From Sorex araneus (taxonomy: Eukaryota > Chordata > Mammalia > Eulipotyphla > Soricidae): a DNA stretch of 64,000 bases. Location of the stretch: NCBI RefSeq assembly GCF_027595985.1, contig NC_073302.1, positions 15,866,311 to 15,930,310 of the forward strand, written 5' to 3'. Within the stretch, counting starts at the first letter, position 1. Every line of letters begins with the position of its first letter. A model generated the notes under the pieces. It was not told the DNA's origin, ran no database searches, and saw nothing but the letters and a program-made list of their open reading frames with translations. Shown one piece after another: positions 8,113 through 63,632 of this stretch. Position numbers and translations under genes: made by a program.

Positions 8113-8124
8113 ATCCTTTTAAAT

Positions 8125-9775
8125 TACCAGATGGATCTATCACATCTTCCAGAAGGGCAATGGAAAAGGTTATCGATGACTTCTACTCGGATCTCTTTGA
8201 TAGCCACGTCCACTTGCCCGCATACCAAATTTCTCAGGATGAATATGTCATTCCCAGAGTTCTCCCTTTCGAAATCCAACACGCCATTTCATTGGTAAAG
8301 ATGGGTACAGCACCGGGTCCAGACAAGGTCAGACACCTGAACACCTGAAGAATCTGCTGCCAGTTCTCGTCAATACACTGGCTCGGCTCTTTACACGCTA
8401 CCTGTCTGAATGCAAGCTTCCTTCCCAGTGGAAAACCAGCAGGACCGTTCTGTTGTACAAGAAGGGAGACATCCACGACATCGGCAACTATCGCCAATCT
8501 GCCAGTTATCCGTTGTCTGCAAGTTGTTCACTCAAGTAATCCTGAATGAAATAGGCAGAACAGTAGATGAACAACAACCAAGTGAGCAAGCCAGGTTCCA
8601 AAAAGGAGTCAGCACAATCGACCATACCCACACGGTGAACTAGCTCATTGAGGTCTCGAGAGAGTCCAGGTCCATTGATTTAAAGAAGGCCTTTGATTCT
8701 GTTGAGACTGAAGTGGTCATCGAAGCCCTAGCCAAATAGGGTGTTTAAACTCAGTACATCAAGATCCTCCACGAGCTGTATTACAGATTCACCACCAGGA
8801 TCTCACCATTCTACAAAGAAGTGTTCATTGACGACATAAAGAGAGGGGTTCGGCAGGGCAACACTATTTCACCGAAACTCTTCAGTGCCATCCTTGAGAA
8901 CATCATAAGACGAGTGGAATGGGAAGGAATGAGAGAGAGGATAGACTGTCAGCAACTACACAACCTCCACTTCGCTGATGACATCATTCTAATCACACCA
9001 AATATTAGCCAAGTGGCACTCATGCTAGCCAACTTTGACTGTGAGTATGGAAAGGTCGGACTGCAGCTGAATCTTATGAAGACAATGTTCATAAGAAATG
9101 AACTAGTTCCTGATATTCCATTTGCCCTCAACGGAATAAACATCTCCGAATGCAACAGTTATGTGTACCTAGGTTGAGAACTTAACATGACAAACGATCT
9201 GGCACCTGAACTGCGCAGGAGGAAGAGAGCAGCGTGGAAGGCCTTCAAGAGCATCGAAGAAGTAGTTAAGAGGATGAAGAACCTATGGCTCTGAGCATAT
9301 CTTTTCGACTCCACCGTTCTTCCTGCACTAACATATGCCTCAGAGACTTAGGTCCTACAGAAACATGATGAGAACACTATTCGGGTATTCCAAAGAGGAA
9401 TCAAAGGAGCTATGCTTGGAGTATCACATTCCACTCAAGTGAGAGAAGGAATCCGGAGTTCCAATCTCCGTCAATGATCAAGAATCAGGGATGCTGTCTT
9501 GTTTGCCAAGGAGTCAAAAATCAGATGACCGCTGGACTAGAGCTGTTACTGACTGGATTCCATGGGAGGTCAAAAGACCTCGTGCACAGCTGCCCACCTA
9601 GAAGATGGTCAGACTTCTTCACCAAGACCCTGAATTAACCGTTTGAGGCTTTTCGTGTTCCTGGAGCAAGAAGACACCATTGGGCTACACTAGCATGCGA
9701 CAGAGATGAATGGAGACGTTACTGGAGCTCGCTCGAGCTAATAGATGAATAACAGGGTGACAAGTGATACAAGTG
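8125..9775 (+). mobile_element. RTE-clade LINE, 5'-truncated
   Basis: A 1.65-kb non-LTR retrotransposon copy. The left TSD ATCCTTTTAAAT (8113-8124) and right TSD ATCCTTTTTAAAT (9776-9788, one extra T) bound it. It starts in the region just before the RT domain, so the endonuclease half is absent, as in 5'-truncated insertions. The 3' end is a GATACAAGT-type tandem repeat, not poly(A), which is typical of RTE elements. The terminal module 9709-9775 recurs at the 3' ends of all family B and C copies here. Family assignment is from remembered RT motifs and the tail type. Confidence 0.88.
8131..9751 (+). pseudogene. RTE reverse transcriptase remnant
   Basis: The broken ORF encodes an RNA-dependent DNA polymerase that would reverse transcribe the LINE RNA at the target. 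Motifs occur in order: APGPDKV (8310-8330), IDLKKAFDS with a catalytic Asp (8674-8700), GVRQGNTISPKLF (8846-8884), the FADD catalytic pair (8971-8982), GLQLNLMKT (about 9058-9084), then SYVYLG and a C-terminal block ending EWRRYW near 9720. Damage includes a repeated ACACCTGA word near 8333-8346 that shifts the frame and in-frame stops at 8641, 8738 and 9176. Further stops lie beyond 9290. The endonuclease domain is missing. It cannot make active protein. Confidence 0.87.
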
Positions 9776-9788
9776 ATCCTTTTTAAAT

Positions 9789-12898: not shown

Positions 12899-13147
12899 AT
12901 CACTGTCATTGCCACTGTCATCCCGTTGCTCATCAATTTGCTCGAGCAGGCACCAGTAACATCTCCATTGTGAGACTTGTTGCTGTTTTTTGCATATCGA
13001 ATATGCCAGGGGTAGCTTTCCAGGCTTTGCAGTGCGGGCAGGATACTCTCGGTATCTTGCTGGGCTCTCTGAGAGGGACAGAGGAATCGAACCTGGGTCA
13101 GCCATGTGCAAAGCAAATGCCCTACCTGCTGTGCTATCACTCCAGCC
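12899..13147 (-). mobile_element. SINE family B (RTE-tailed)
   Basis: Full-length B copy. Right to left: tRNA-like head (GCTGTGCTATCACTCCAGCC reversed), B-specific middle (CTCTCTGAGAGGGACAGAGGAATCG) and the RTE 3' module. The tail is CACTGTCAT type, the reverse complement of ATGACAGTG repeats. Confidence 0.9.
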
Positions 13148-14578: not shown

Positions 14579-14880
14579 CATATATATATCTGTCACTGTC
14601 ATCCCATTGCTCATTGATTTGTTCGAGTGGGCACCAGTAATGTCTCTCATTGAGACACTTATTGTTACTGCTTTGGCATATCCAATATGCACGGGTAGCT
14701 TGCCAGGCTCTGCCATGCGGGCTCGATATTCTTGGTAGCTTGCCGGGCTCTCCGAGAGGGGCGGAGGAATCGAACTCAGGTTGGCCATGTGAAAGGCGAA
14801 CGCCCAACCGCTGTGCTATTGCTCCAGCCCATATATATATACATATATATATATACATATATATGTATATATATATATAC
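14546..14880. repeat. (TA)n microsatellite split by a SINE
   Basis: TA-rich tracts at 14546-14589 and 14831-14880 flank the B SINE at 14590-14830, so the SINE landed in a TA microsatellite or the TA run expanded around it. Confidence 0.9.
14590..14830 (-). mobile_element. SINE family B, young subfamily
   Basis: Near-consensus B copy with the tail next to the left TA tract. It shares diagnostic head changes with the copy at 40796 (GGTTGGGCGTTCGCCTTTCAC on the element strand) and a GTCTC-AATGA-GAGAC segment before the RTE module. This supports a recent subfamily. Confidence 0.92.
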
Positions 14881-17497
14881 TTTCTGGTTCTCTGTATTGT
14901 CCTCTAAAGTAACTTTAGTCTATTCTATAATAAGAACGGTTCCCTGAAGCACAATAGAATTGTGACTATAAGTGTAGGCTCTAGACCATGAAGGCCAGGT
15001 TTAGAAATAAGCCTCAACCTGCAAAAAAAAAATACATATAGGCAAAGTGCTTCTTGTATCTGTGTCTCTTGTTCCATATGTGAAAATTTTGTATAAGAGT
15101 CTCCCTGAGGGGCTTAGATTTTTACCTTGTCCTACATGAAAGCCCCAGTGAACAGTGCTAAATACCGAGATCTCAGGAAACAGTGACTGTATATTATGTC
15201 CATATAATTCATAGAATGCAACACATATAGTAGCTCCTTGGAGAATGACTTCCTTTTTTTTTTCTTAACACTTAAAAAATTCACTTTACTATGTTGGAAC
15301 TCAACTTGCCTCATTTATTAAATTAGAGTCAGAAAGCTGACCTTTCTGCAAATAGCAGGGCTAACTGACATTTTAATAATATTTTCTACTCTAAGAGACC
15401 CGTAACAGGCATATGGTCCAGAATTTGTAAACTGTAAAAGGCAAACGTCATCTACAATCAAAGAATGGAATGATAGAAGTCATGAAGTCAAAGTTATATA
15501 TGAATGCAGAGAAAACACCCAGAGAATATAGCTTAAAACATTATGGGAAGCACAGGTATAAACATAGATAGATAAAAATATGTATGATGGAAATATTACA
15601 AAATAATAGAAGCTGAGTTTACTTCACATAGATTTCTGCCAGGATTTCATCAAATACTAACTGGGTCATAGAATTTAATTACATATTGCAAGACAGTGTA
15701 CCCCGAGAAAGAGAAGAACTTAATAAAAACTTCATCATCATTTCGTTCCTTATTAGTTGTCTGTTATAATCTGCGTTGGGACTTTATTATTCTAAATTAT
15801 TTTATTTACTTTGTGTCAGATGAAATATTTTCCACCCAGGAATTGGGGGACAGGAGATGCAACAAGGTCAAGCAAGACATTGTGGGAAAGATGGAGAAGT
15901 GGGTGGGAGGCAGGCTCAGATGTGAACCCAATAAAGCATCAGATCTCATGGCCACCCTCTCTAGGTTTCTGGCTATATTGTTTGAAATGATTATGAGTTT
16001 AATGGATTAAAAATATTATTAAACATGCCCTTCTCCAGAAGACTCCATTAGCATAATGAAAATATGCAAATTATTAATTTTAAACCATCTCAACAACAGC
16101 AGCCACATTTTTCTCCTGCCAGGGAACACCAGCTTAATGAGATTGGACTGGCCAAGAGCTATGGATGCCTAAGTCAGGGGGAAAAAAGATATCTTAGGGG
16201 TAAAGGGTGTAGCTGGCTCTACCCCAGCACTTTTGAATAGTATACCAGTGCTTTTTCCATGGACTGATGCCAATGTGCAAACTTTCCTGCCCATTTGAGA
16301 CAAAGGCATTGCTATTGAACACATGTGATGCCTAGATGAAATGTCCACCTTATGATATTTGATTTAAAAGTGAATTCACAAAATACATTATAAATGAGAG
16401 TTTTTATTTTTGTCTTAGAGGCAAGAGAACTATTTCCATTTTGCCTGGTCCACCGGTGTAAAAATGATGAAAACCACTTGACAAACAATAGAATATTCAT
16501 AGGAAGCCAAGCGATTTCAGCTGTAAGCAGGGATTACAGTCAATAACCTACTCACAACCTCACTGAGGGTCCATAAGTAAATTTAGCTTTCATAAAAATG
16601 ATCAACCTTCATTTTTTCTTGTCCGGTTCAAAGTATAAAATACCAAACAATTTATTTCTATTTTTATTCCTTCTTTATTTCCAATTACTTTTAAGCACCT
16701 TACCTGCTCTAATCAACTTACTATATACTTTGAACCATTAAAGAATCTTCATGAAATATGATTATTGTATTTATTGAGTTTATGATATTATACTCTGAAA
16801 GGTAAACAAGTAAGACAAAATTATAAAACATATAATGTTACACATAAATCATAGAAAATTACTTAAATATTTATTTGAAAGCAAGTTTAGGCCTGAATGA
16901 AAAATAGGAGATAGATTGATAAGACTTATAAGATAGATTGATATGTGTACAATTGTAAGAGCGAGTTGCAGAAAGAGGAGAGAGAATTGGGTAATAATAA
17001 GCTCGAAGTTTGAAAATATATATGTTCTAGATAGAAAAAAAGAACAAGAGGTGCAAAATTTTGGCAGTGAGGGGTAAAAAGAAGAGAAATTTTCCAAAAT
17101 AATATAAAATTCACAGTAAATTTGCGTATGGCATTTTCAGTGTGAGTTAAATGGATTCACATGCAGAAGACAGACCCATCTGGTAAGTGAGATTCAGAAC
17201 ATGTCAATGCTGATGGTGTCTCTTTGTTTAGAGGCAGTCGGAGGCCATTAAAGGCAGCAAGAGGTTATTGAGAAATTGTTAGATATTAGAGAGATCTGTG
17301 ACAATGTTTTGAAAGAAAGCGATCCTTGTGACTGCAGAGCCTTGGGGAGGGAAGATTTATTGCAGAGCAAAATAGATTATGTGAAGATTTTTGGTAAAAT
17401 GTGAAGATTTTACTCAAAGATGTCTCTTTCACTTCTTCCATGATCTTACCTGAAATATCCTAAAGGAGACATCTTTATGTCCTATAACTTGGAAGAC
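14881..17497. other. Unannotated, no gene recognised
   Basis: About 2.6 kb with no repeat I can name. Open frames of 60-104 codons occur on both strands without recognisable domains or splice-supported structure. This is the longest SINE-free stretch in the window. Confidence 0.4.
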
Positions 17498-17742
17498 TGG
17501 GCTGGAGCGATAGCACAGCAGAAGGGCATTTGCCTTGCAGGCAGACGACCAGAGTTCAATTCCTCCATCCCTCTCAGAGAGCCCGGCAAGCTACTGACAG
17601 TTTCTCTCCCGCATGGCAGAGCCTGGCAAGCTACCCGTGGTATATTCAATATGCAAAAAACAGTAACAAAAAGTCTCAAAATGGAGACATTACTGGTGTC
17701 CACTCTAGCAAATCGATGAGCAATGGGATGACAGTGACAGCA
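17498..17742 (+). mobile_element. SINE family B (RTE-tailed)
   Basis: GGGCTGGAGCGATAGCACAGC head, B middle and the RTE module ending GGGATGACAGTGACAGC. Mildly diverged and full length. Confidence 0.9.
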
Positions 17743-18055
17743 AACTTGGAAATCTCAAGGGTTTTCAAAGGCATTTCAATATTTGTGATACTCTCTTTGC
17801 CTGAGACATGAAGAAATTCCTCTTGGACCTAAGTAGCACAATTATGAATAGTAACATACATCACAGAAAAACTTGACCAACTGAGAATCATTCTGTAGAG
17901 CAAAGCAATTGATGCTTTCATAAATTCATCTGGCTCTTCAAGTGACCACCCAACAATATACCTTAATATGACTTGCTGTAGTTCCCATATAATGTTTTTA
18001 GAGCTTCATATAGGAAAAAGTGAGGTATTCCAAGTCTTCTCTTTCCCTGTGGTTG

Positions 18056-18905: not shown

Positions 18906-19146
18906 GGGCTGGAGCAATAGCACAATGGGTAGGGCCTTTGCCTTGCATGTGGCCAACCTGAGTTCGATTCCTCCATCCCACTTGGAGAGCCCAGCAAGCT
19001 ACTGAGAGTATACAGCTCGCACGGCAGAGCCTGGCAAGCTCCCCATGGCATATTTGATATGCCAAAAACCATAAAAAGTCTGACAATGGAGATGTTACTG
19101 GTGCCCACTTGAGCAAATTGATGAAGAACAGGATGACAGTGACAGT
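18906..19146 (+). mobile_element. SINE family B (RTE-tailed)
   Basis: Full-length B copy with GACAGTGACAG tail. The flanking words GTGGTTCACAAT (left) and GTAATTCACAAT (right) are a probable TSD. Confidence 0.88.
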
Positions 19147-21316: not shown

Positions 21317-21757
21317 AATCTGGAGTGATAGCACAGCGACTACTAGGGCGTTTGCTTTGCACGCCGCCGACTGGGTTCGATTCCTCTGCCCCTCTCGCTG
21401 GCTTGGCAGAGCTTGGCAAGCTCCCTGTGGTATATTTGATTTTTTTAATTATTTTTTCTTTTTGGGTCACACCTGGCAATGTACAGGAGTTAATCCTGGC
21501 TTTGCACTCAGGAATCACTCCTGGCAGGGTTTAGTGATTCCCTGCATATGAGATGCAGGGAATCGAACTCGGGTTAGCCGCATGCAAGGCAAATGCCCTA
21601 CCCTCTGTGCTATTACTCCAGCGCCCCTTTTTAAAATTTTTTTCTCCTGTGGCATATTTGAAATGCCAAAACCAGTAACAAGTCTCACAATGGAGACGTT
21701 ACTAGTGCCTGCTTCAGCAAATCAATGAACGGGATGACAGTGACAGTGACAGACATC
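21317..21757 (+). mobile_element. SINE family B interrupted by an A copy
   Basis: The B head and middle occupy 21317-21439 and the rest (GCATATTTGAAATGCC through the RTE module and GACAGTGACAGTGACAG tail) resumes at 21644. The A SINE between them carries a TSD copied from the B sequence itself (CTCCCTGTGGTATATTTGA at 21421, CTCCTGTGGCATATTTG at 21644). B was therefore already in place. Confidence 0.9.
21440..21643 (-). mobile_element. SINE family A nested in B
   Basis: Minus-oriented A copy with an A-rich tail at the left and the tRNA-like head ending near 21626. A short T/A-rich stretch (21627-21643) between its 5' end and the TSD is unexplained. Confidence 0.88.
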
Positions 21758-28039: not shown

Positions 28040-29345
28040 TTATATGCTGCTCACAGTTACTTTTCCTGTCATTCGATGAGGACAGGCAGAGAACACAGAG
28101 AGCAAGCTCTAGCTAATCCCTCATCACTTTTGAAGGGGGGAGGGTTTAACCACAAAAACTCATCCACAGCACAATGGGAAAAATACGTAGAAAACCAATC
28201 AACTTGAACGAGAGAAAATACCACTGAAGACATAAACAACACTAGTGAATGCTCAGAGAGTGTTTTTAAAGATACAATGATGAGGATATTCAATGAGTTC
28301 AAAGAAACAATAGCACAGGTAGTCAGCAAAGTACAAGAAAGTATGAGACCTTAAATGGAAAGGCTATTGTAGTCAGAAGTGACAGAAAAGAAGAACATGG
28401 TAGGTAATATATGTGTATTTTTAAGTCAATTGAAGCTCTTAACAAAAGAATAACAGAAACTGAGTAAAAGATTGAGAATTTCCAAGATGAGAAAGAGGAA
28501 ACTGTTAGAAAACAGCAGAAAGTGAAAAATAGTCTGAAAAAAATGAAAAGCATATAAGACAACTCTGGGATGAGTTCTTGAGAAACAATCTAAGAATCAC
28601 TGGAGTTCCTGAAGAACAGGAAAGCAAATGTGAAGAAACGATAGTTAGAGAAATTATTGAGAAGAGCTTCCCAGAGTTGAGATTATAGGCACTGAGATGC
28701 AATAGGTCTCAAGGGTCCCAGTGAAAATAAACCCAATTTGGAAAACTCCAAGAGATAGCATACTCAAAATGACAAAATCTAAATGTAGAGACAAAATGTT
28801 GAAAGAAGCAAGATTTAAAAAATGAGCTTATAAAGGAAAGATATACAGCGGATCTTTCAAATGAGATTACAAACCAGAGGAATGTGAAAAGATATAGGAT
28901 AAAAACCTCTGAAACGAGCAACTTACCAAAAAATACTCCATCCAGCTAGATTGTCAATCAGATTTGAAGAAACTAGAGCGATAGCTCAGCGGGTAGGGCG
29001 TTTGCCTTGCACACGGCTGACCTGAGTTTGATTCCTCTGTCCCTCTCCGAGAGCCTGGCAAGCTACCGAGAGTATCCCACCCACATGGCAGAGCCTGGCA
29101 AGCCACCTGTAACATATTGATATGCCAAAAACAGTAACAACAAGTCTCAGAATGGAGACATTACTGGGACTTGCTCGAGCAAATTGATAAAAAACAGGAC
29201 GACAGTGCTACAGAGCATCATGGATGGACAATAACTCAGGGAATTCATAGCCTTGACCAGTTTTGCCAGAAACGTTAAAAGAGCTTCTTTAAGGACAAGA
29301 GAATCTTACAATCATGTGGTATTGAAAATGATACTTACTAATTTT
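28040..29345 (+). mobile_element. HAL1/L1 ORF1 relic
   Basis: Translated in shifting frames, it gives a coiled-coil-rich region (28230-28560), a block like the ORF1 RNA-binding core (EFLRNNLRITGVPEEQ at about 28573-28620) and a late basic block (SKCRDKMLKEARF, 28768-28812). These match L1/HAL1 ORF1 proteins, which bind the element RNA. Frameshifts and stops show that it is dead. A B SINE interrupts it at 28968. The relic at 4870 is a second copy on the other strand. Confidence 0.68.
28968..29215 (+). mobile_element. SINE family B (RTE-tailed)
   Basis: Full-length B copy inside the HAL1/L1 relic. Head CTAGAGCGATAGCTCAGCGG, B middle, RTE module and GACAGTGCTACAG tail. Confidence 0.9.
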
Positions 29346-29399: not shown

Positions 29400-29745
29400 T
29401 AATCACCACAAATTGACTTTTATTGATTTATTTTCTAATAATTTTATTTGCCATTTTAAAGGTTTTTTGACCAATTTATATCATCATCATCATCATCATT
29501 AAAAATTGGTCAAGAAAAGAAAGAGTCTCTTGCCATGCACCTGGCTGTCTTCTCCGGGGGCCCCTCAGAGGGGATGGGCTCTAGCTTCCCTCCTCGCCCC
29601 GAGCAGAGCACCTGGTGGCCGAAGACCTCTGGAGCCTAGCCACAGCCCTTCTCCACACGTTAGGATGAGCCTCATGCATGAAGGTACGAGCAGAGGAACC
29701 AGAGTGTGACAAATATATATGAAATAAATTTGTTATATGCCTGCA
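29400..29745 (+). mobile_element. L1/HAL1-like 3' end split by a family C piece
   Basis: The flanks 29405-29478 and 29705-29745 resemble 30250-30395 (ACTTTTATT...ATTTATTTTCT, AATAAATTTGTTATATGCCT), so both are copies of one old 3' end. The C-type insertion at 29479 splits this copy. Confidence 0.45.
29479..29702. mobile_element. Family C fragment with (ATC)n
   Basis: The part at 29515-29702 matches, on the plus strand, the 5' part of family C (TTGCCATGCACCTGGCTGTC, CACACGTTAGGATGAGCC, AGCAGAGGAACC). An (ATC)7-like run lies on the left, where a minus-oriented copy would have its tail. TTGACCAATTT (29467) and AAATTGGTCAA (29503) form an inverted repeat around the run. This arrangement fits an inverted 5' end, but a simple truncated copy is also possible. 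Confidence 0.6.
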
Positions 29746-29922
29746 AAGGGTGCAAAAACAAAATGAAGCCTCATTTATGTATAGAACACTTGTATTATTA
29801 CTGCAATAAGGTCCAAAATACAAAGGAAACAAATAATGCAATATTTTTCAGATGCCAGAGTTGAAAACTTAGTTATGTAAATGAGAATAGGCAGTATACT
29901 ATAATGTATTAAATGGTTTGCA

Positions 29923-30196
29923 GAAACCAAACCAAAGCATTAAAACAGTACTGCCTATACTAACGCTGGAGTGGGTAGGGCATTTGCCTTGCACGTGGCC
30001 TATCCATGTTCGATTCCTCCACCCATCTCGGAGAGCCCAGCAAGCTACTGAGAGTATCTTGCCCACATGGCAGAGCCTGGCAAGCTACCCATGGTGTATT
30101 TGATATGCCAAAAACAGTAACAGCAAGTCTCACAATGGAGACGTGACTGGTGCCCACTCGAGCAAATTGATGAGCAATGGGCAGACAGTGACAGTG
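29923..30196 (+). mobile_element. SINE family B with altered 5' end
   Basis: A perfect 15-bp TSD (ATTAAATGGTTTGCA at 29908-29922 and 30197-30211) encloses the copy. The tRNA head starts only at about GCTGGAGTGGG (29965). The first roughly 40 bp between the TSD and head are not SINE sequence. Part of the A box region is lost. Confidence 0.88.
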
Positions 30197-30244
30197 ATTA
30201 AATGGTTTGCATTTTCTTATTTAGATAGGTTAAAATCATATAGC

Positions 30245-31721: not shown

Positions 31722-31969
31722 ATAACACTGTAGCACTGTTGTGCCGTTGTTCATCGATTTGCTCGAGTGGGCACCAGTAACATCTCCATTGTGAGACTTG
31801 TTACTATTTTTTTCATATTGAATAAGCCATGGGTAACTTGTCAGGCTCTGCTGTGCAGGCAGGATACTCTTGGTAGCTTGCTGGGCTCTCTGAGAGGGAC
31901 AGAAGAATCAAACCCGGGTTAGCCGCATGCAAAGCAAACACCCTACCTGCTATGCTATCACTCTAGTCC
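31722..31969 (-). mobile_element. SINE family B (RTE-tailed)
   Basis: Full-length minus copy with CACTGTAGCACTGT tail (element strand ACAGTGCTACAGTG), RTE module, B middle and tRNA head. Confidence 0.9.
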
Positions 31970-33869: not shown

Positions 33870-33954
33870 TGCTTTAGTTTTTTACAATTCATCTTATTGA
33901 AGTGTTTTACAAGAAGAGCTCAATATGATATCTTAACTTGTGAAAATATTTACT

Positions 33955-34135
33955 TCTTGGAGAGCCCAGCAAGCTACCGAGAGTATCTCGCCTACACACC
34001 AGAGCCTGGCAGGCTCCCTGTGGTGTATTCGATATGCCCAAAACAGTAACAAGTCTCACAGTGGAGACGTTACTGGTGCCACAGGGAGCAAATTGATGAA
34101 TAATGGGATGACAAGGATACAGTGATACAATGATA
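33955..34135 (+). mobile_element. SINE family B, 5'-truncated
   Basis: Begins in the B middle (TTGGAGAGCCCAGCAAGCTACC), without the tRNA head. It keeps the RTE module and a GATACAGTGATACAATGATA tail. Confidence 0.88.
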
Positions 34136-37654: not shown

Positions 37655-37852
37655 CGCTGTCATTGTCACTGTCATCGATTTGCTCAAGCGGACACCAGGA
37701 ATGTCTCCATTGTGGGTAGTTTGCCATGCTCTGCCATGTGGGTGAGATACTCTCAGTAGCTTGCCGGGGTTTCTGTGAGGGGTGAAGGAATCGAACCCAG
37801 GTTGGCCACGTGCAAGGCAAACACCTTATCCGCTGTGCTTTTGCTCCAGCCC
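37655..37852 (-). mobile_element. SINE family B, internally deleted
   Basis: The copy lacks about 45 bp between the RTE module (TGTCTCCATTGTG) and the middle (GGTAGTTTGCCATGC). The flanks AGAAATTTAAAT and AGGAATTTAAAT form the TSD. Confidence 0.88.
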
Positions 37853-38155: not shown

Positions 38156-38411
38156 CTGTAGCACTGCCATGCACTGTCATCCATTGTTCATCACGTTGCT
38201 CGAGCGGGCACCAGTAATGTCTCCATTATGAGACTTGTTGTTACTGTTTTTGGTATATTGAATACGCCACGAGTAGCTCACCAGACTATGCCATGTGGGC
38301 AGGATACTCTCTGTAGCTTGCTGGGTTCTCTGAGAGGGATGGAGGAATCAAACCCTGGTCAGCTGCATACAAGGCAAACGCCCTACCCGCTGTGCTATGG
38401 ATCCAGTTCAA
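38156..38411 (-). mobile_element. SINE family B (RTE-tailed)
   Basis: Full-length, mildly diverged minus copy with head, middle, RTE module and CACTGTCAT-type tail. Confidence 0.9.
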
Positions 38412-38447
38412 GAGAGAAGCGGAAAATATGTAGTTTAGAATTAACTT

Positions 38448-38735
38448 GTATCACTTGTCATCCGTTGATCTTCGATTTGCCCGAGCAGGTGCCAGTAACA
38501 TCTCCATTTGTCTCTGTCACGTGCTAGTCTAGCCCAATGGTATCTGCTTGCTCCAGGAACTCGAAGAACCTCAGACCATTTGTTCAGGGTTTTGAGGAAG
38601 AAATCTGACCATCTCATAGGTAGGTGGTCTTTGGACGTTCCCTGGAATCCAGTCGTAACAGCTCTAGTCCAGTGGTCATCTCTAGATCACATTGTGTCCA
38701 GCCCATCTGATTTTCAATGCCTCGGAGAATGAGAT
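38448..38735 (-). mobile_element. RTE LINE 3' fragment
   Basis: Its reverse complement continues the element at 8125 upstream of the shared module. It contains counterparts of GGTCAGACTTCTTCACC, CTGGAGCAAGAAGACACC and the ATTGGGCTACACTAGC segment before the GGAGATGTTACTGG module, with a GTGATACAAG tail. It is a 5'-truncated sister copy and confirms the RTE 3' structure. Confidence 0.9.
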
Positions 38736-39103
38736 TTTTAACTGACTTTTCGATGTTTTAACTGAAAACTGAAAACGTATTTAACTTGCATCAGATTTCA
38801 TTCAGCATTCACCAGCTTCTGGTGCTATTATTAGTTCTTTACTTCCACTAATAGGTGCCCAGGAATTGAGTTTTAAGCTCCCTTTGTTTGACTTTACTTA
38901 TCCAATTGAGCAGACATTTCAAAAAGTTCACTTATGAAGTGACTTCCTAGTTTAAACCCATTGAAATTGATCCTCTGAGGTCTAGGATATCAGAAGGTAA
39001 GATTTCCTGGATTGACTTGAGATAGCTACAAAGCAATTCTCATTCCTGCTTCTGCCAGATCACACTTGCTTGTGGCAAAGTGAGCCCGCATTCTCGTTGA
39101 GTT
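38736..39103. other. Unannotated, no gene recognised
   Basis: No repeat recognised up to the TSD of the U6-L1 chimera. Confidence 0.4.
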
Positions 39104-39121: not shown

Positions 39122-39228
39122 CTGCTCTCTTTGGCACCAAATTTACTAAAATTAGAGCAATACACAGGAGATTAGCATGGCTCCTTGCAAGGATAAGATG
39201 CAATTTCTTGAATGTTTTCATGTGTTTT
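39122..39228 (+). pseudogene. U6 snRNA retropseudogene
   Basis: The segment follows U6 from its first nucleotides: TGCTCTCTTTGGC, ACTAAAATT, GATTAGCATGG, CAAGGAT, and a CAATTTCTTGAATG-like 3' stem region. Many substitutions and small deletions remove function, including changes in the invariant ACAGAG box (read ACACAGG). The normal T-rich end is replaced by L1 sequence. Confidence 0.88.
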
Positions 39229-40046: not shown

Positions 40047-40101
40047 GAAATACTTCCCTTTTTCACTTCATAAATACTTTTAAGAATTTGAACTCTCATC
40101 A

Positions 40102-40540
40102 CATCATCATCATTATCATAATCCTGTTGATCGTCAAATTTCTTAAGTGGTCTCAGTAACGTCTCCATTCGTCCTGGCCCTGAGGTTTCAGAAGCCTCTC
40201 TTTATGAGTCCTTTCCAATGGTGCCACATTGGAGGCTCTTTCAGGGTCATGGGAATGAGACCCATCATTGTTACTGTTTTGATATATGAATAAGTCACGG
40301 GGAGTTTGTGAGGCTCTCCCATGTGGACAGGAGACTCTCAGTAGCTTGCCAGGTTCTCCTAGAGGGAGAACTAGGCTAAAAGATGTCGCTTTCGGGAGCT
40401 TGGTTTTATAGTCTCTGGATGTTGGCCATTGGTGGGATTACACTGTGCCAGGGGCAGTCCCTGGGTGTGACCGCCTAGCTACTGGAAAAAGGGGAATTTT
40501 GGCGGAAGATGTCCAGACCTGATCTGAGCAGGTTTGGCTC
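40102..40540 (-). mobile_element. Family C element, 5'-truncated
   Basis: Left to right on the plus strand: an ATC-rich tail, the RTE module, the C-specific segment (GGCTCTTTCAGGGTCATGGG), the segment shared with B (CTCAGTAGCTTGCCAGGTTC), then C 5' sequence up to CTGATCTGAGCAGG. The first ~180 bp present in the longest copies are missing. Confidence 0.8.
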
Positions 40541-40795: not shown

Positions 40796-41048
40796 CATAT
40801 CCAATATGCACAGGTAGCTTGCCAGGCTCTGCCGCGTGGGCTCGATACTCTTGGTAGCTTGCCGGGCTCTCCGAGAGGGGCAGAGGAATCGAACTCAGGT
40901 CGGCCACGTGAAAGGCGAACACCCAACCGCTGTGCTATCGATCCAGCCCTGTTTTTGGATATGCCAAAAACAGTAACAATAAGTCTCAATGAGAGACGTT
41001 ACTGGTGTCCACTTGAACAAGTTGATGAGCAATGGGATGACAGAAATG
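40796..41048. mobile_element. SINE family B with inverted 5' half
   Basis: The 3' half (40957-41048: middle end, RTE module, GGGATGACAG) is on the plus strand. The 5' half (40796-40950: head and first part of the middle) is on the minus strand immediately upstream. The halves meet near the same element position, both containing GGATATG. This is the layout expected from twin priming. Subfamily changes match those of the copy at 14590. Confidence 0.88.
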
Positions 41049-42545: not shown

Positions 42546-42750
42546 TCCATCTGTCTTGCACGAAGCCAACCTGGATTTGATTCCTCTATCCCTCTTGGAG
42601 AGCCCAGAAAGCTACCAAGAGTATCCCGCCTGCATGGCAGAGCCTGGCAAGCTACCCGTGGCATATTTGATATGAGAAAAACAGTGACAAATTTCACAAT
42701 GGAGACATTATTGGTGCTCGAGGAACAACAGGGAGGCAGTGCTACAGTGC
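42546..42750 (+). mobile_element. SINE family B, 5'-truncated
   Basis: Starts within the head (TCTGTCTTGCACGAAGCC) and keeps the B middle and RTE module. The module has lost about 15 bp (GGTGCTCGAGGAACAACAGGG). Tail GGCAGTGCTACAGTG. Confidence 0.85.
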
Positions 42751-43069: not shown

Positions 43070-43362
43070 TATTATTAGAAATATACTTATATACTAGAAA
43101 TATATATTTATTTATATGTTATTAGAAATGTACTTATATATAGCATAATAGTAACAATAGGTCTTATTCCCCTGACCCTGAAAAAGCCTCCAATCTTTGG
43201 GAAAGGAGAGACTGCTAAAATCTCAGGGCTGAGTGTAATAGAGACTTTACTGTTGCCCACTCAAGTAAATCAACAAACAACAGGATGACAATGACACAGT
43301 GATACTTATATACTAGAAATATATATTTATTTATATATTTATATTTAAGGATATATATATAT
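43070..43362. repeat. Local AT-rich tandem duplication
   Basis: A unit of about 47 bp (starting ATTAGAAATATACTTATATA) occurs at 43074 and again at 43121. The second copy is interrupted by the C fragment at 43141 and resumes at 43303. A TA-rich run follows at 43340-43362. Confidence 0.65.
43141..43302 (+). mobile_element. Family C 3' fragment
   Basis: A 162-bp 5'-truncated C copy: AATAGTAACAATAGGTC, ATTCCCCTGACCCTG, GACTGCTAAAATCTCAGGGC, a diverged RTE module and GATGACAATGACACAGTGA tail. TSD TACTTATATA lies at 43131-43140 and 43303-43312. Confidence 0.82.
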
Positions 43363-43960: not shown

Positions 43961-44636
43961 ATCACTGTATCACTGTACCACTGTCATCCCGTTGTTCATT
44001 AATTTTCTTGAGTGAGTGCCAGTAATGTCTCCATTCATCCTAGCCCTGAGATTTTAGCAGCCTCTCTTCATTCATCCTTCCCAACGGTGCCACTTTGGAG
44101 GCTCTTTCAGGGTCAGGGGAATGAGACACATCATTGTTACTGTTTTTGGCGTATGAATACACCACAGGGAGCTTGCCATGCTCTGCCATGTGGGCAGGGT
44201 ACTCTAAGTAGCTTGCTGAGTTCTCAGAAAAGGAGGACTAGACAATAAGAGGCTGCACGGCCACATTTGCTTCTGGGAACTTTGTTTTATAGTCTCTGGA
44301 TCTTGGTCATTGATGGAATTACATTGCGGGAGCAGTTTGTGGGTGTGACTGCAAAGCTACTGGAAAATGGGGCCTCTGGGTGGTGAAGGCCCAGTCCCTA
44401 TCCAAGCAGGCTTGGAGATCTCAGCCCCAGGTCCTGCACACCCAGGTTCCTCTGCTGGTTCCTTCATGCATGATGCTCATCTGAGCATGTGGAGAGGGGC
44501 CTTGAACACGGCTGTGGCTGGGTTCTGGAGGTCTTCGGCTGCCGGGGCTCTGCTCAGGGTGGGGAAGGAAACTCAACCCGCCGTCCTTCGAAGATCCCTG
44601 GTGAAGACAGCCAGGCACGGGGGCAGGAAACTCTAA
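43961..44636 (-). mobile_element. Family C element, near full length
   Basis: On the minus strand: a 5' part of about 330 bp with no tRNA box (starts near AGTTTCCTGCCCCCGTGC), the segment shared with B (about 44225 back to 44145), a C-specific block (CCCCTGACCCTGAAAGAGCC, CTGCTAAAATCTCAGGGC), the RTE module and a GATACAGTGATA tail. It has no useful ORF. It is non-autonomous and probably depends on the RTE LINE. Confidence 0.8.
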
Positions 44637-44682
44637 TTATAAATATAATAAATATTATATAATAGTATATTAGCCCTAATAT

Positions 44683-44792
44683 TACTTGTATCACTTGTCA
44701 TCCAGTTGTTCATCAATTTTTTCGAGCAGGTGCCAGTAACATCTCCATTCATCCCCATAACATGATAGTGTACCCCAATGGCATCTGCTCTC
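44683..44792 (-). mobile_element. RTE LINE 3' fragment
   Basis: Shows ACTTGTATCACTTGTCATCC (RTE tail), the 3' module and the adjoining RTE coding part (CCCAATGGCATCTGCTC, which matches the RTE copy at 38448 and not families B or C). A 110-bp 5'-truncated copy. Confidence 0.85.
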
Positions 44793-44831
44793 ATATTTCC
44801 TAACTAAAACTGTTTCACTTAATTCAAATAA

Positions 44832-45269: not shown

Positions 45270-46035
45270 AGCGGAAAAGATGATGGAGCTGGAGGATGTG
45301 CAGTGGGGAAGGAGGATGACCAGCCATGGAGTTGAATGGTGGAACTGTGAGGGGATGGTAGAGATGGAGATGGGGGAGGACAGGTAGTGGAAGATGGAGC
45401 TGCCAGATGATGGGGCTCTTGGGTGATGGAGCTACTGGATGATAGAACTACTGGATGATAGAGCTGGTGGATGATGGAGCTGCTGGGTCATGGAGCATCT
45501 GGCAGCTCCATCATCCAGCAGCTCCATCATCCAGCAGCTCATCATCCAGCAGCTCCATCATCCAGCAGCTTCACCATCCAGTAGCACCATCATCCAGAAG
45601 CTCCGTCATCCAGCAGCTCTATCATCTAGGAGCTCCATAATCCGGCAGCTCCATCATCTGGCAGCTCCCTCATACGGCAGCCCCATCATCCAGAAGCTCC
45701 ATCATCCAGCAGCTCTATCATCTAGGAGCTCCATCATCTAACAGCTCCATCATCTGGAAGTTCCATCATCTGGAAGCTCCATCACCCTGCAGCTCCATCA
45801 TTCAGGAGCTCCATTATCTGGCAGCTCCATCATCCAGCAGCTCTATCATCCAGTAGCTCCATCATCCATCAGATCATTCATCCAACAGTTCTGTCATACA
45901 GCAGCTCTATCATCTGGCAGCTCTATCATCCAGCAGCTTCATCATCTGGCAGCTCTATCATCCAGCAGCTCCATCCAGAAGCTCCATCATCCAGTAGCTC
46001 CTTCATCCAGCAGTTCTATCATCCGGTAGCTCCAT
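45270..46035. repeat. Minisatellite, 15-bp unit, with orientation switch
   Basis: From about 45270 to 45497 the unit reads ATGGAGCTGCTGGATG-like on the plus strand, increasingly degenerate to the left. From 45498 to 46035 it reads CATCCAGCAGCTCCAT-like, the reverse complement, for roughly 35 units with few changes. The junction is near GCATCTGGCAGCTCC. The 15-bp unit is a multiple of three, so it leaves Ser/Ala/Pro-rich open frames of no likely meaning. A large hairpin could form around the switch. Confidence 0.93.
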
Positions 46036-46355
46036 GAACTAAGTATTAATTGAAAATTAGACATACATGTGCATAATTGCAGAGGTAGTTAGTTATTTCA
46101 AACCAAGACTTAGTACTGAAAATAGGTATAGAACTTAATACATAAAATTATATTCATATATATGTGTATACATAATTATAGAGATGCTTCAGAAAATGGA
46201 TTTTAATTGACTGCCTGGAAAAAGGCAGACTTAGATGCATCATTGGTATTAATTAATCCATATAATATTCTCTCTTTTTTTCACACATACACACTTTCAA
46301 ATCCAGGTGCACTAAATTAAAAGATGCTTCATATGCAAACTACTCTAATTATAGA
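46036..46355. other. Unannotated, no gene recognised
   Basis: AT-rich spacer between the minisatellite and a C element. Confidence 0.4.
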
Positions 46356-47005
46356 TCATCATCATCATCATCATCATCACCATCATCCCGTTGATTGTCG
46401 AATTTCTCGTCCTAGCACTGAGATTTTAGAAGCCTCTCTACTCATCCTTCCCAATGATGTGCATTGGAGGCTCTTTCAGGGTCAGAATGAGACGCAGCTT
46501 GTTACTGGTTTTGGCATATTAATACACCTTGAAACCTTGCGAGGTTCTCCCATGTGGTCAGGAAACTCCTGGTAGTTTGCCAGGTTCTCCCAGAGAAGAA
46601 GTAGGCTATAAGATATTGCACAGCTTCAAAGAGGCCGAGCCCTTCCAGGAGCTTGCTTTTAAGTCTCTGGATGCTGGCCGTGGATGGAACTACACGGCGC
46701 TGGGAGCAGTCCCTGGGTATGACCACCTAGTTACTGGGAAGTGGGAAATCTGGGCAGAACAGACCCAGTCCTGATCCGAGCAGCCTTGGAGGTCTCAGCC
46801 CCAGGTCCCACACACCTAGGTTCCTCTGCTGATACCTTCATGCGTGTGGCTAGTCCGAACATGTGGAGAGGGGCCATGAACATGGCTGTGGCTAGGCTCC
46901 GGAGACTTTGGATGCAGGGAGCTCTGCTCAGGGTGGGGAGGAAAGCTGGACCCTATCCCCTCCGAGGTGTCCCGGGGAAGACAGGCATGCAGGCAATTGT
47001 CTCTC
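46356..47005 (-). mobile_element. Family C element, near full length
   Basis: An (ATC)9-like tail at the left is followed by a shortened RTE module (the GTGCCAGTAATGTCTCCATT part is deleted). Then come the C-specific block, the B-shared block (CTGGTAGTTTGCCAGGTTC), and the 5' part to GAAGACAGGCATGC. Its tail, (GAT)n on the element strand, differs from the ACAGTG tails of other copies. Confidence 0.82.
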
Positions 47006-47765: not shown

Positions 47766-48279
47766 CTTTGCTAGATCTAAATTTCTGCCTCAGTAGTGAG
47801 TACAAATTCCCTCCATCACAGTCTATGCATATATCCCAAAGCATCACTTTCCATGCTGAGGTAGGACCTCATTCCCTCTTGAATTGCAGCTGTTCTGGTG
47901 ACTTTTCTGACATGAATATAACAGAAATGATGATGACTTTTCTGTAGCTTAAATCTCACCAGGCATTGGAGTTGCTGGTGGCATGTGGGTGCTGCATTGA
48001 CCTTCCCAAGCCAAGAAGTTAGTGAATTACCTAGGAGGGGGAGTCGCCCAGCATGAGGTGTTCAGGTGTGTGTGCGCACATGCGTGTCTGTGCATGTGTG
48101 TGCACTCAGACTTTTTTCTTTGGGACCTTTATTCTGTTTCCTCCTTGCCTTCCCTTTGTTATGTGATCGCTGGTGTTCATATGCTTTGTCACGGTGCATT
48201 TGGATGTCACACTCTCATTTGAGTTCTCACACACATTTGGTCACAGGGGTGGCAGAGTGGCACCATTTTTCTTACACTA
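47766..48279. other. Unannotated, no gene recognised
   Basis: Contains a short TGTG-rich patch near 48065-48105. No named repeat. Confidence 0.4.
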
Positions 48280-48527
48280 TAGCGGGTAGGGCATTTGCCC
48301 TGCATGTGGCTGACCCGGGTTTGATTCCTCTGTTCCTTTCGGAGAGCCCAGCAAGCTACCAAGAGTAGAGAGTATCCCACCTGCCCAGCAGAGCCTGGTA
48401 AGCTACCTGTGGCGTATTAGATATGCCAAAAACAGTAACAACAAGTCTCACAATGGAGATGTTACTGGTGCCCACTCGAGCAAATCAATGAGCAATGAGC
48501 AATGGGATGACAGTAATACAATGATAC
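48280..48527 (+). mobile_element. SINE family B (RTE-tailed)
   Basis: Starts slightly inside the head (TATAGCGGGTAGGGCATTTGCC). The middle has a small AGAGT repeat, and GAGCAAT is duplicated in the RTE module (ATGAGCAATGAGCAATGGG). Tail ATACAATGATACAG. Confidence 0.88.
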
Positions 48528-53298: not shown

Positions 53299-53419
53299 AG
53301 CACTGTAGCACTGTCGTCCCATTGTTCATTGATTTGCTCAAGTGGGCACCAGTAACATCTCCATTGTGAGACTTGTTACTGTTTTTGGCATATCAAATAT
53401 GCCATGGGGAGCTTGCCAA
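53299..53419 (-). mobile_element. SINE family B, 5'-truncated
   Basis: Only the tail (CACTGTAGCACTGT), RTE module and end of the B middle (up to GGGGAGCTTGCCAA) are present, in a very AT-rich site. Confidence 0.87.
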
Positions 53420-54479: not shown

Positions 54480-54705
54480 GGGGACTGGAGCAATAGCACA
54501 GTGGGGAGGGCGTTCGATTCCTCCATCCCTCTCGGAGAGCCCGGCAAGCTACCGAGAGGATCCTGCCCTCCTGGCAGAGCCTGGCAAGCTCCTTGTGGCG
54601 TATTCAATATGCCCAAAACAGTCACAACAAGTCTCACAATGGAGACGTCATGACTGGTGCCCGCTCGAGCAAATCGATGAGCAACGGGATAACAGTGACA
54701 GTGAT
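54480..54705 (+). mobile_element. SINE family B, head deletion
   Basis: Low divergence. The segment between the A and B boxes is missing (GGGAGGGCG joins GTTCGATTCC). The middle, RTE module (GCCCGCTCGAGCAAATCGAT) and GACAGTGACAGTGATG tail are almost consensus. Confidence 0.92.
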
Positions 54706-56701: not shown

Positions 56702-56708
56702 AATCTCC

Positions 56709-57131
56709 CAGTCCCAGAACCTGGGTCTAAGATCTCCAAGCCTGCTCAGATTGGGACTGGGCCTCCTCCACCCAGATCCCCCATTTTCCAGTAGCTGCCC
56801 CCTGTCCCGTGTAATCCCATCAATGCCCAAGATCCAGAGACCTGGCCTTGCAACCTCTTATTGTCTAGTTCTTCCTCTTGGAGAACCTGGCAAACTACTG
56901 AGAGTATTCTGCCCACACAGCAGAGACTGGAAAGCTCCCCGAGTGGTGTATTAGAGATGCAAAAACAGTGACAATGAAGGGTCTCACTCCCCTGACCCTG
57001 AAAGAGCCTTTAATGCAGCACCATTGAGGACGAGTGAAGCGAGGCTGCTAAAATCTCAGGACAAATGGAGATGTTACTGGTGCCCACTCGAGCAAATCGG
57101 TGAATAACAGAATGACAGTGATACAGTGATA
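56709..57131 (+). mobile_element. Family C element, 5'-truncated
   Basis: Plus-oriented: C 5' part from AGTCCCAGAACCTGGG, then the B-shared block (GGCAAACTACTGAGAG), the C block (GGTCTCACTCCCCTGACCC), the RTE module and a GACAGTGATACAGTGAT tail. AATCTCCCA on both sides (about 56702, 57132) is the likely TSD. Confidence 0.85.
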
Positions 57132-57945
57132 AATCTCCCAAGTTGTGGATGGTGTCGGGGGCAAGGTGTGTGTGGGGGGGGTGGGGGAGCCAGGTGGACA
57201 CACATCACTGCAGAGGACACAGGCTGCTGTTTGTATGCTATATCACGACCGACTGTCTCATTGGACCCAGGACAACCTTTCTAAAAAGATGTTTTGATCC
57301 TGTTTCCTGGGGAAGAATGTGCTTCAAAATCCTTGACCTTTTCCAGTGTTCCTAGGGGCCAAAAGTGCTTAGAGAAGTGAAAAATTCAATTTCTCCGCTT
57401 GGCTTGTCATTCAGACTTCGAAAAGAATAGACAAACCAGTGCATAGATTCCCCATAGTTTAGCTTTGAGACCCTAGGGAACAAAAATACTGGGAGCTAGG
57501 AACTACCCAATGGCTTCATGCTGAACAGAAATAATAGAGTCATCCTTGGACAGGGCTACACATTTATCCCATGGTTCTCTTATTATTTTTCAACAAGTAA
57601 ACCTTAGTTATTCTAATATTACACCAGATTATCATCTCTGTATTATTTTTAAAAAGTAAGAAATTTTATAGTTTTATCTGAAAGCAAAGAGCAAACCTCA
57701 AACTTTGATCTCAAGTCCTAACTGTTCCCTTGTTACTAGATTACTTTATCACAAGAACAAAGCAAATTCCTATCCACTCATAGTTTTAAACAGAATAAGA
57801 AATTAACGTGTCTGTATCACAAATGCTAATGAAGGTCTCTACTGTGAAATCTCTATTTCATACCAGTTTACGCCAATATTTTAAAAAATCAACCATCAAC
57901 AAAAATAGTTGCAAATATGTCTCCCATCATTTAAGTTGCTTCCTT
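57132..57945. other. Unannotated, no gene recognised
   Basis: Includes a G-rich stretch at 57166-57191 (GTGTGTGGGGGGGGTGGGG). No gene. Confidence 0.4.
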
Positions 57946-62882: not shown

Positions 62883-63600
62883 TGTATCACTGCCATCCCA
62901 TTGTTCATCGAATTCCTCGAGCAGGCACCAGTAACATCTCCATTCGTCCAAGCCCTGAGGTTTTAGCAGCCTCTCCTTACTCATCCTTCCAAATGGTGCT
63001 GTATTGGAGGCTCTTTCAGGGTCAGGGGAATGAGACCCTTTATTATTACTATATTTGGCATATTGAATATGCCACTGGGAGCTTTCCAGGCTCTGCTGTG
63101 CGGGTGGGATACTCTCAGTAGCTTGACTCTCCAAGAGGGACGTAGAATGTGCATAAGAGAATAGAAACAGGTATGTTAAAACCAAACACATGCATGCTGC
63201 TAAGAATATCAGTGAACTAGAGTATAAGAGGTCACGTGGCCGCAAATGTTTTATAGTCTCTGGATCTTGGCTGTTCATGGGATTACAGGGTGCCCAGGGG
63301 GCAGTTTGTGGGTGTGATTTCGAAGCTACTGGAGGATGGGGGATCTGGGTGGAGGAGGCCCAGTGCCAGTCTGAGCAGGCGTGGAGATCTCAGCCCCAGG
63401 TCCCACATACCTGGATTCCCCTGCCAGTTCCTTCTTGCATGAGGCTCATCCGAGCATGTGGAGAGTGGCCCTGAGCATGGCTGTGGCTGGGTTCTGGAGG
63501 TTTTCAGCTGCTGGGGCTCTGCTTGGGGTGGCAAGGGAAACCCAACCAGGCCCCCTCCAAGGGGCCCTGGTGAGGACAGCCCAGTTCGGGGGCAGGAGAC
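62883..63600 (-). mobile_element. Family C element, longest copy
   Basis: Contains all C parts from the 5' end (near CCTGCCCCCGAACTGGGC on the minus strand) through the 5' part, B-shared block and C-specific block to the RTE module and ATACAGT tail. About 80 bp near 63140-63215 has no counterpart in the other copies. A 187-codon frame on the minus strand crosses its 3' half and is not a gene. Confidence 0.83.
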
Positions 63601-63632
63601 TTACATACTTATTTGAAAATTTCTAAACAGCA

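Follow-up and report, generated by a model that had tools for sequence, protein, structure and literature searches.

A strongylid-type RTE LINE and its candidate SINE parasites in the genome of the common shrew

In the common shrew, Sorex araneus, a decayed RTE LINE copy ends in a segment that recurs in two non-autonomous repeat families (here called B and C), which raises the questions of whether the LINE could have mobilised these families and how such a relationship would have arisen. We addressed both within one contiguous stretch of 64,000 nucleotides (hereafter, the window), whose elements are listed in Table 1. Our best overall explanation, to which we assign a probability of about 0.8, is that a strongylid-type LINE would have given rise to C and C in turn to B, with both presumably mobilised by the reverse transcriptase (RT) of the LINE.

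Table 1. Coordinates of the LINE, B and C elements in the window
Feature	Position	Strand	Remarks
RTE LINE copy, decayed, 5'-truncated	8127..9777	+	RT domain to 3' end; tail end ACAAGTGATACAAGTGAT
Shared 3' module	9710..9777	+	Final RT-ORF codons and repeat tail; search matches, C-terminal motif in homologues
B SINE	12913..13147	-	tRNA head, body, module; piecewise scans
B SINE	14594..14830	-	Within (AT)n tract
B SINE	17495..17742	+	9-bp direct repeats AACTTGGAA at 17486-17494 and 17743-17751
B SINE	18907..19141	+
B SINE	21320..21742	+	Split by antisense family A element (about 21460-21622)
B SINE	28973..29207	+
C head alone	29520..29709	+	Without 3' end; piecewise scans
B SINE, truncated head	29923..30196	+	15-bp exact direct repeats at 29908-29922 and 30197-30211
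B SINE	31734..31968	-
B SINE	33953..34113	+	Without tRNA head
B SINE	37657..37851	-
B SINE	38172..38407	-	Adjoins LINE fragment
RTE LINE 3' fragment	38447..38790	-	Matched by homologues in tblastn, lowest E 6e-18; module 38507-
C element	40121..40539	-	(GAT)n-like tail just outside; leader 57.5% to Haemonchus P0009
B SINE, complete	40796..41043	.	5' 154 nt inverted relative to 3' 89 nt; 9-nt overlap TTGGATATG
B SINE, decayed	42589..42740	+
C element, 5'-truncated	43147..43300	+	Between 35-nt direct repeats at 43083-43117 and 43302-43336
C element, near full length	43974..44660	-	Leader 61% to P0009
RTE LINE 3' fragment	44690..44800	-	tblastn, E down to 2e-7; module 44748-
C element	46355..46996	-	Damaged module, (GAT)n tail; piecewise scans
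B SINE	48275..48514	+
B SINE, 5'-truncated	53309..53419	-
B SINE body and module	54526..54697	+	Damaged head upstream
C element, 5'-truncated	56711..57131	+	9-bp direct repeats AATCTCCCA at 56702-56710 and 57132-57140; leader 55%
C element, near full length	62888..63620	-	Leader 61%, E 3.6e-11

The window also contained a U6 snRNA-like sequence (39122-39227; full model covered, 55.6 bits, E 2.8e-11), either a gene or a pseudogene, and, at 45388-46035, a minisatellite with a 16-bp unit whose two abutting blocks run in opposite directions (TGGATGATGGAGCTGC, then its reverse complement).

The LINE and its 3' module

The limits of the LINE given in the initial annotation (8125..9775) were corrected to 8127-9777. 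The read-through protein of this copy (549 aa, with X written at stops and shifts) carried an RVT_1 domain (Pfam E 9.6e-22), and the copy is flanked by a candidate duplication with one indel, spotted by eye (CCTTTTAAAT at 8115-8124 and CCTTTTTAAAT at 9778-9788). From 7970 scored candidates, 1384 relatives of the protein were retrieved at E ≤ 0.001. Among the best 120 of these 1384, the species-named relatives were all strongylid nematodes, and the top two had no species name; within the same 120, identity to the strongylid relatives reached 69% despite the decay of the LINE, and the AP-type endonuclease domain PF03372 was present in many homologues, the LINE copies in the window being 5'-truncated. 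A 28-row tree placed the LINE protein inside a 24-row strongylid group (support, 100/100), on a long branch, and resolved its position no further than this group. The element is read as a dead RTE-clade copy of the strongylid-nematode type and, because of this affinity, most likely belongs to the RTE1_Sar family, as judged by protein affinity rather than by consensus DNA. A published study describes RTE1_Sar as a case of horizontal transfer linking strongylids with the common shrew, with transfer from nematode to shrew favoured, without proof, as the direction; nine nematodes were found to carry it, S. araneus was the sole carrier among the mammals that the study covered, and it is reported as undetected in hedgehog, mole, and solenodon (PMC6542046). 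The species-named kin of the LINE came mostly from genera treated in that paper, whose main text, as a point of difference, does not contain the word SINE.

When positions 9709-9760 were used as the sole query, 22 matches were obtained in the 64-kb window at E ≤ 0.05, and none in any of 20 dinucleotide-shuffled windows. An iterated profile yielded 26 rows at E ≤ 1, which were sorted into 24 module copies, one remnant, and one row counted as spurious (38545+, E 0.09). The 24 copies comprised three LINE ends (9710+, 38507-, and 44748-), 16 B elements, and five C elements, while the remnant lay in a sixth C element (46409-). The recurrence noticed in the initial annotation, with TGGAGACGTTACTGG at 9711 and CTCGAGCTAATAGATGA at 9732 lying where they had been placed, thus exceeds chance and covers the terminal ~50 bp of the LINE in B, C, and two further LINE fragments. 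The 16 B and seven C copies counted at the outset hold as elements, but the module itself was present in 16 of 16 B and only five of seven C (one remnant, one absent), the seven being made up of six leader-bearing copies and one head-only piece (29520-29709).

In the reading frame of the LINE, the module encodes the C-terminal stretch of the RT (DEWRRYW..LE.IDEQ.DD), with a stop directly after it and then the repeat tail. A loose pattern for this motif matched the C-terminus in 38 of the best 120 homologues. The translation of the SINE module after restoration of CpG sites by the author (WRRYWCPLEQIDEQRDD) shared 15 of 17 residues with the C-terminus of Nippostrongylus P0015. Since the module translates as an RT C-terminus that matches the homologues, the SINE tails are, by this translation, a piece of nematode-type coding sequence. 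The suggestion that the LINE end serves as a shared module therefore stands in an altered form: the module is coding sequence, and B and C share more than their 3' end. Folding of 21 module copies lent no support to a conserved RNA structure: 7 pairs were obtained, and none showed compensatory change.

Structure and kinship of families C and B

The protein P0009 of Haemonchus contortus has an N-terminal extension ahead of the usual start, and four C copies in the window matched this extension at 55–61% over 36–40 aa (best E, 3.6e-11, or 5.7e-8 once corrected for composition). The extension occurred only in P0009 and, partially, in P0121, both from H. contortus. The corresponding leader of C directly abuts the DEWRRYW end; the frame is kept in the copy at 40168-, and the C consensus has a stop codon in between. 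With leader and RT end joined in this way, C is read as a non-autonomous, internally deleted LINE derivative that has kept both ends. Upstream of the leader, no nematode match to the B/C body was found; the three hits that it gave, short proteins P0122-P0124, were rejected as nematode relatives of this body, as they themselves resemble B or C copies. The C head had a GC content of 0.52–0.57 in three copies, compared with 0.38 for the window, and no Rfam match at gathering score; the patterns used detected no A- or B-box-like motifs in three C heads, and C was not assigned a pol III head. The 35-nt repeats around the C copy at 43147..43300 are exact, the second starting directly after the C tail and the first being overlapped by a tandem repeat, and they may represent a long target duplication.

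The head of B is of the pol III type, A-box-like and B-box-like motifs each being present in seven of eight heads checked. It was 91% identical over 65 nt to the head of family A, which we take to be the SOR SINE of shrews (17 A and 12 B among 30 head matches, one head without a body match being excluded). Families A and B share this head and differ in body and tail, that of A being A-rich and B having no A-run of 8 or more. The Sor SINE is reported to derive from the shrew genome (PMC11240701). One B copy (21320-21742) contains a family A element, so that A was active after the insertion of that B. The B and C consensus sequences were 89% identical over 102 nt of body and 93% identical over 44 nt of module. 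B is without about 100 nt of the leader present in C, and its link to the LINE 5' region is thus indirect only, through the body common to B and C.

The terminal repeats differed from copy to copy (ACAAGTGAT, ACAGTGAT, ACAGTGCT, GACAGT, and GAT). Endings in short tandem repeats, as originally described, were confirmed for the clearest tails but not for the many copies with only one or two units. All three LINE ends finished in ACAAGTGA-type repeats and held ACAAGTGA itself, which was found in none of 22 B and C elements (one B, at 34061, has ACAAGG); this places the direct source outside the window, and the three LINE fragments within it are, by their tails, not the exact source of B and C. 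The shorter unit ACAGTG was present in 13 of 16 B, three of six C, and none of the three LINE ends. Two C copies had (GAT)n-like rather than ACAGTG-type ends (40098-40127 and 46355-46387).

These patterns bear on whether B and C could be independent parasites, each having captured the LINE 3' end separately. Such an origin would suit their different heads and the (GAT)n tails on two C copies, but it is improbable in view of the well-conserved stretch of body common to both and of the ACAGTG unit, which they share with each other and not with the LINE. A single lineage shaped by head exchange and deletion is preferred, because it accounts for the body and the tail-unit pattern more simply than two captures would. 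The two families initially described as sharing one module therefore appear to be one lineage with different heads.

Proposed origin and mobilisation

Under the single-lineage reading, C would have been born when an internal deletion joined the 5' leader to the last ~17 RT codons and a very short repeat tail, in front of which C carries about 400 nt of head sequence of higher GC content. B would then have arisen from the C lineage through deletion of ~100 nt of leader and exchange of the C head for a family A-like, tRNA-derived pol III-type head. The LINE RT would bind B and C RNAs, since these end like the LINE RNA, and would insert new copies of them elsewhere through target-primed reverse transcription. 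Mobilisation by the RTE of the window or a close relative is favoured by the 3' end that the families have in common with the LINE, by tails free of poly(A), by the overlapping ages, and by the two-ended LINE-derived tail. We infer trans-mobilisation, the order of C before B, and an origin of both families later than the horizontal transfer.

Half the mean pairwise non-CpG distance was 0.114 for C, 0.096 or 0.113 for the LINE, and 0.064 for B, in small samples of five of seven, two or three, and 11 of 16 copies, respectively. Within the limits of these samples, copy ages overlap, so that the objection foreseen in the initial annotation, namely B and C copies lying before or after all RTE activity, does not apply. 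Flanking duplications were detected at a shuffle p ≤ 0.01 for five of 15 elements, three with clear exact repeats (B30135, 15 bp; B17681, 9 bp; C57065, 9 bp) and two doubtful (B14649, in (AT)n, and B37710, mismatched and at some distance from the element), and the other 10 showed none beyond chance. Between its 15-bp repeat and its truncated head, the B copy at 29923..30196 has about 40 nt of other sequence (29923-29962). An inversion with a short overlap, as in the B copy at 40796-41043, is the mark left by twin priming in L1 copies.

The same distances are relevant to the idea that the bipartite C was born in a nematode and arrived together with the LINE, only B being of mammalian making. 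Divergence among the C copies equals or exceeds that among the LINE copies, and internally deleted RTE derivatives have been called common (PMC7245038). We nevertheless consider this history unlikely: no nematode copy of C came to light, in DNA searches that covered viral and prokaryote contigs, and these contigs contained no kin of the LINE at either the DNA or the protein level. As to tails, the reported lack of poly(A) was upheld: no A-run of 8 or more occurred in any of 25 module elements, versus eight of 20 family A copies hand-picked from 24 bodies (Fisher p = 0.0006). That L1 machinery copies B and C, the RTE-like 3' end being a passenger, is therefore very hard to credit, even though the SINEs of placental mammals usually depend on L1 and the similar head of family A goes with A-rich tails, given that the B and C tails resemble the LINE terminal repeats.

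Returning to the derivation of C from the LINE and of B from C, we put the chances at somewhat better than even that it amounts to a two-step parasite chain within a mammal, in which the nematode-derived LINE gave rise to C, and a resident L1-type SINE head then switched helper by way of the C body and tail, forming B.

Related systems and significance

The bipartite design of RTE SINEs is already known; the point of interest here is that the partner LINE, although in a mammal, is of nematode type. Gogolevsky is said to have described, in 2008, Bov-B SINEs with a bipartite LINE part. A parallel in setting is provided by the AviRTE SINEs, whose bipartite tails derive from the LINE 5' and 3' UTRs and are combined with tRNA, 5S, 28S, and GC-rich heads; the likeness lies in an RTE shared with nematodes and in the two-ended LINE-derived tail, and the differences in the RTE itself, the nematodes (filarial), and the hosts (birds) (PMC4844689). 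Bov-tA, AfroSINE, and Ped-1/2, tabulated as SINEs of Bov-B and RTE1, likewise join a tRNA or 5S head to an RTE tail (PMC3747384), but have other partner LINEs and are set beside B and C by description, not sequence. MAR4, RTESINE1, RTE1-N1_LA, and Bov-A2 resemble C in using an RTE/Bov-B 5' end as promoter part without a tRNA (PMC3747384), whereas C has its extra head of about 400 nt. Hagfish SINE1-1_EBu and its kin also have bipartite LINE-derived tails, and the published model for them, in which an RTE is first deleted internally and the head is then exchanged, resembles our proposal for B and C, with 7SL and tRNA heads and hagfish RTEs as the differences (PMC7245038). No shrew is named in the mammalian rows shown of the SINE table in PMC3747384, and no shrew RTE-SINE pairing was found in the literature searched, which lay outside Repbase and most subscription papers, where it may be catalogued.

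The SINEs use both LINE ends, and the closest kin of the LINE are found in parasitic roundworms; it thus seems that an element borrowed from roundworms has sustained parasites of its own inside a mammal. If true, the system would be the mammalian counterpart of AviRTE, in which SINEs were born after a LINE had been acquired horizontally, and the date of the transfer would set an upper age limit for the B and C SINEs. B would offer a testable case of a resident SINE switching its helper. The elements of the chain make up 14% of the window, so that what a foreign element has spread at second hand, via native SINEs, may far exceed the LINE itself; if so, LINE counts alone would understate the sequence that a genome gained from one transfer.
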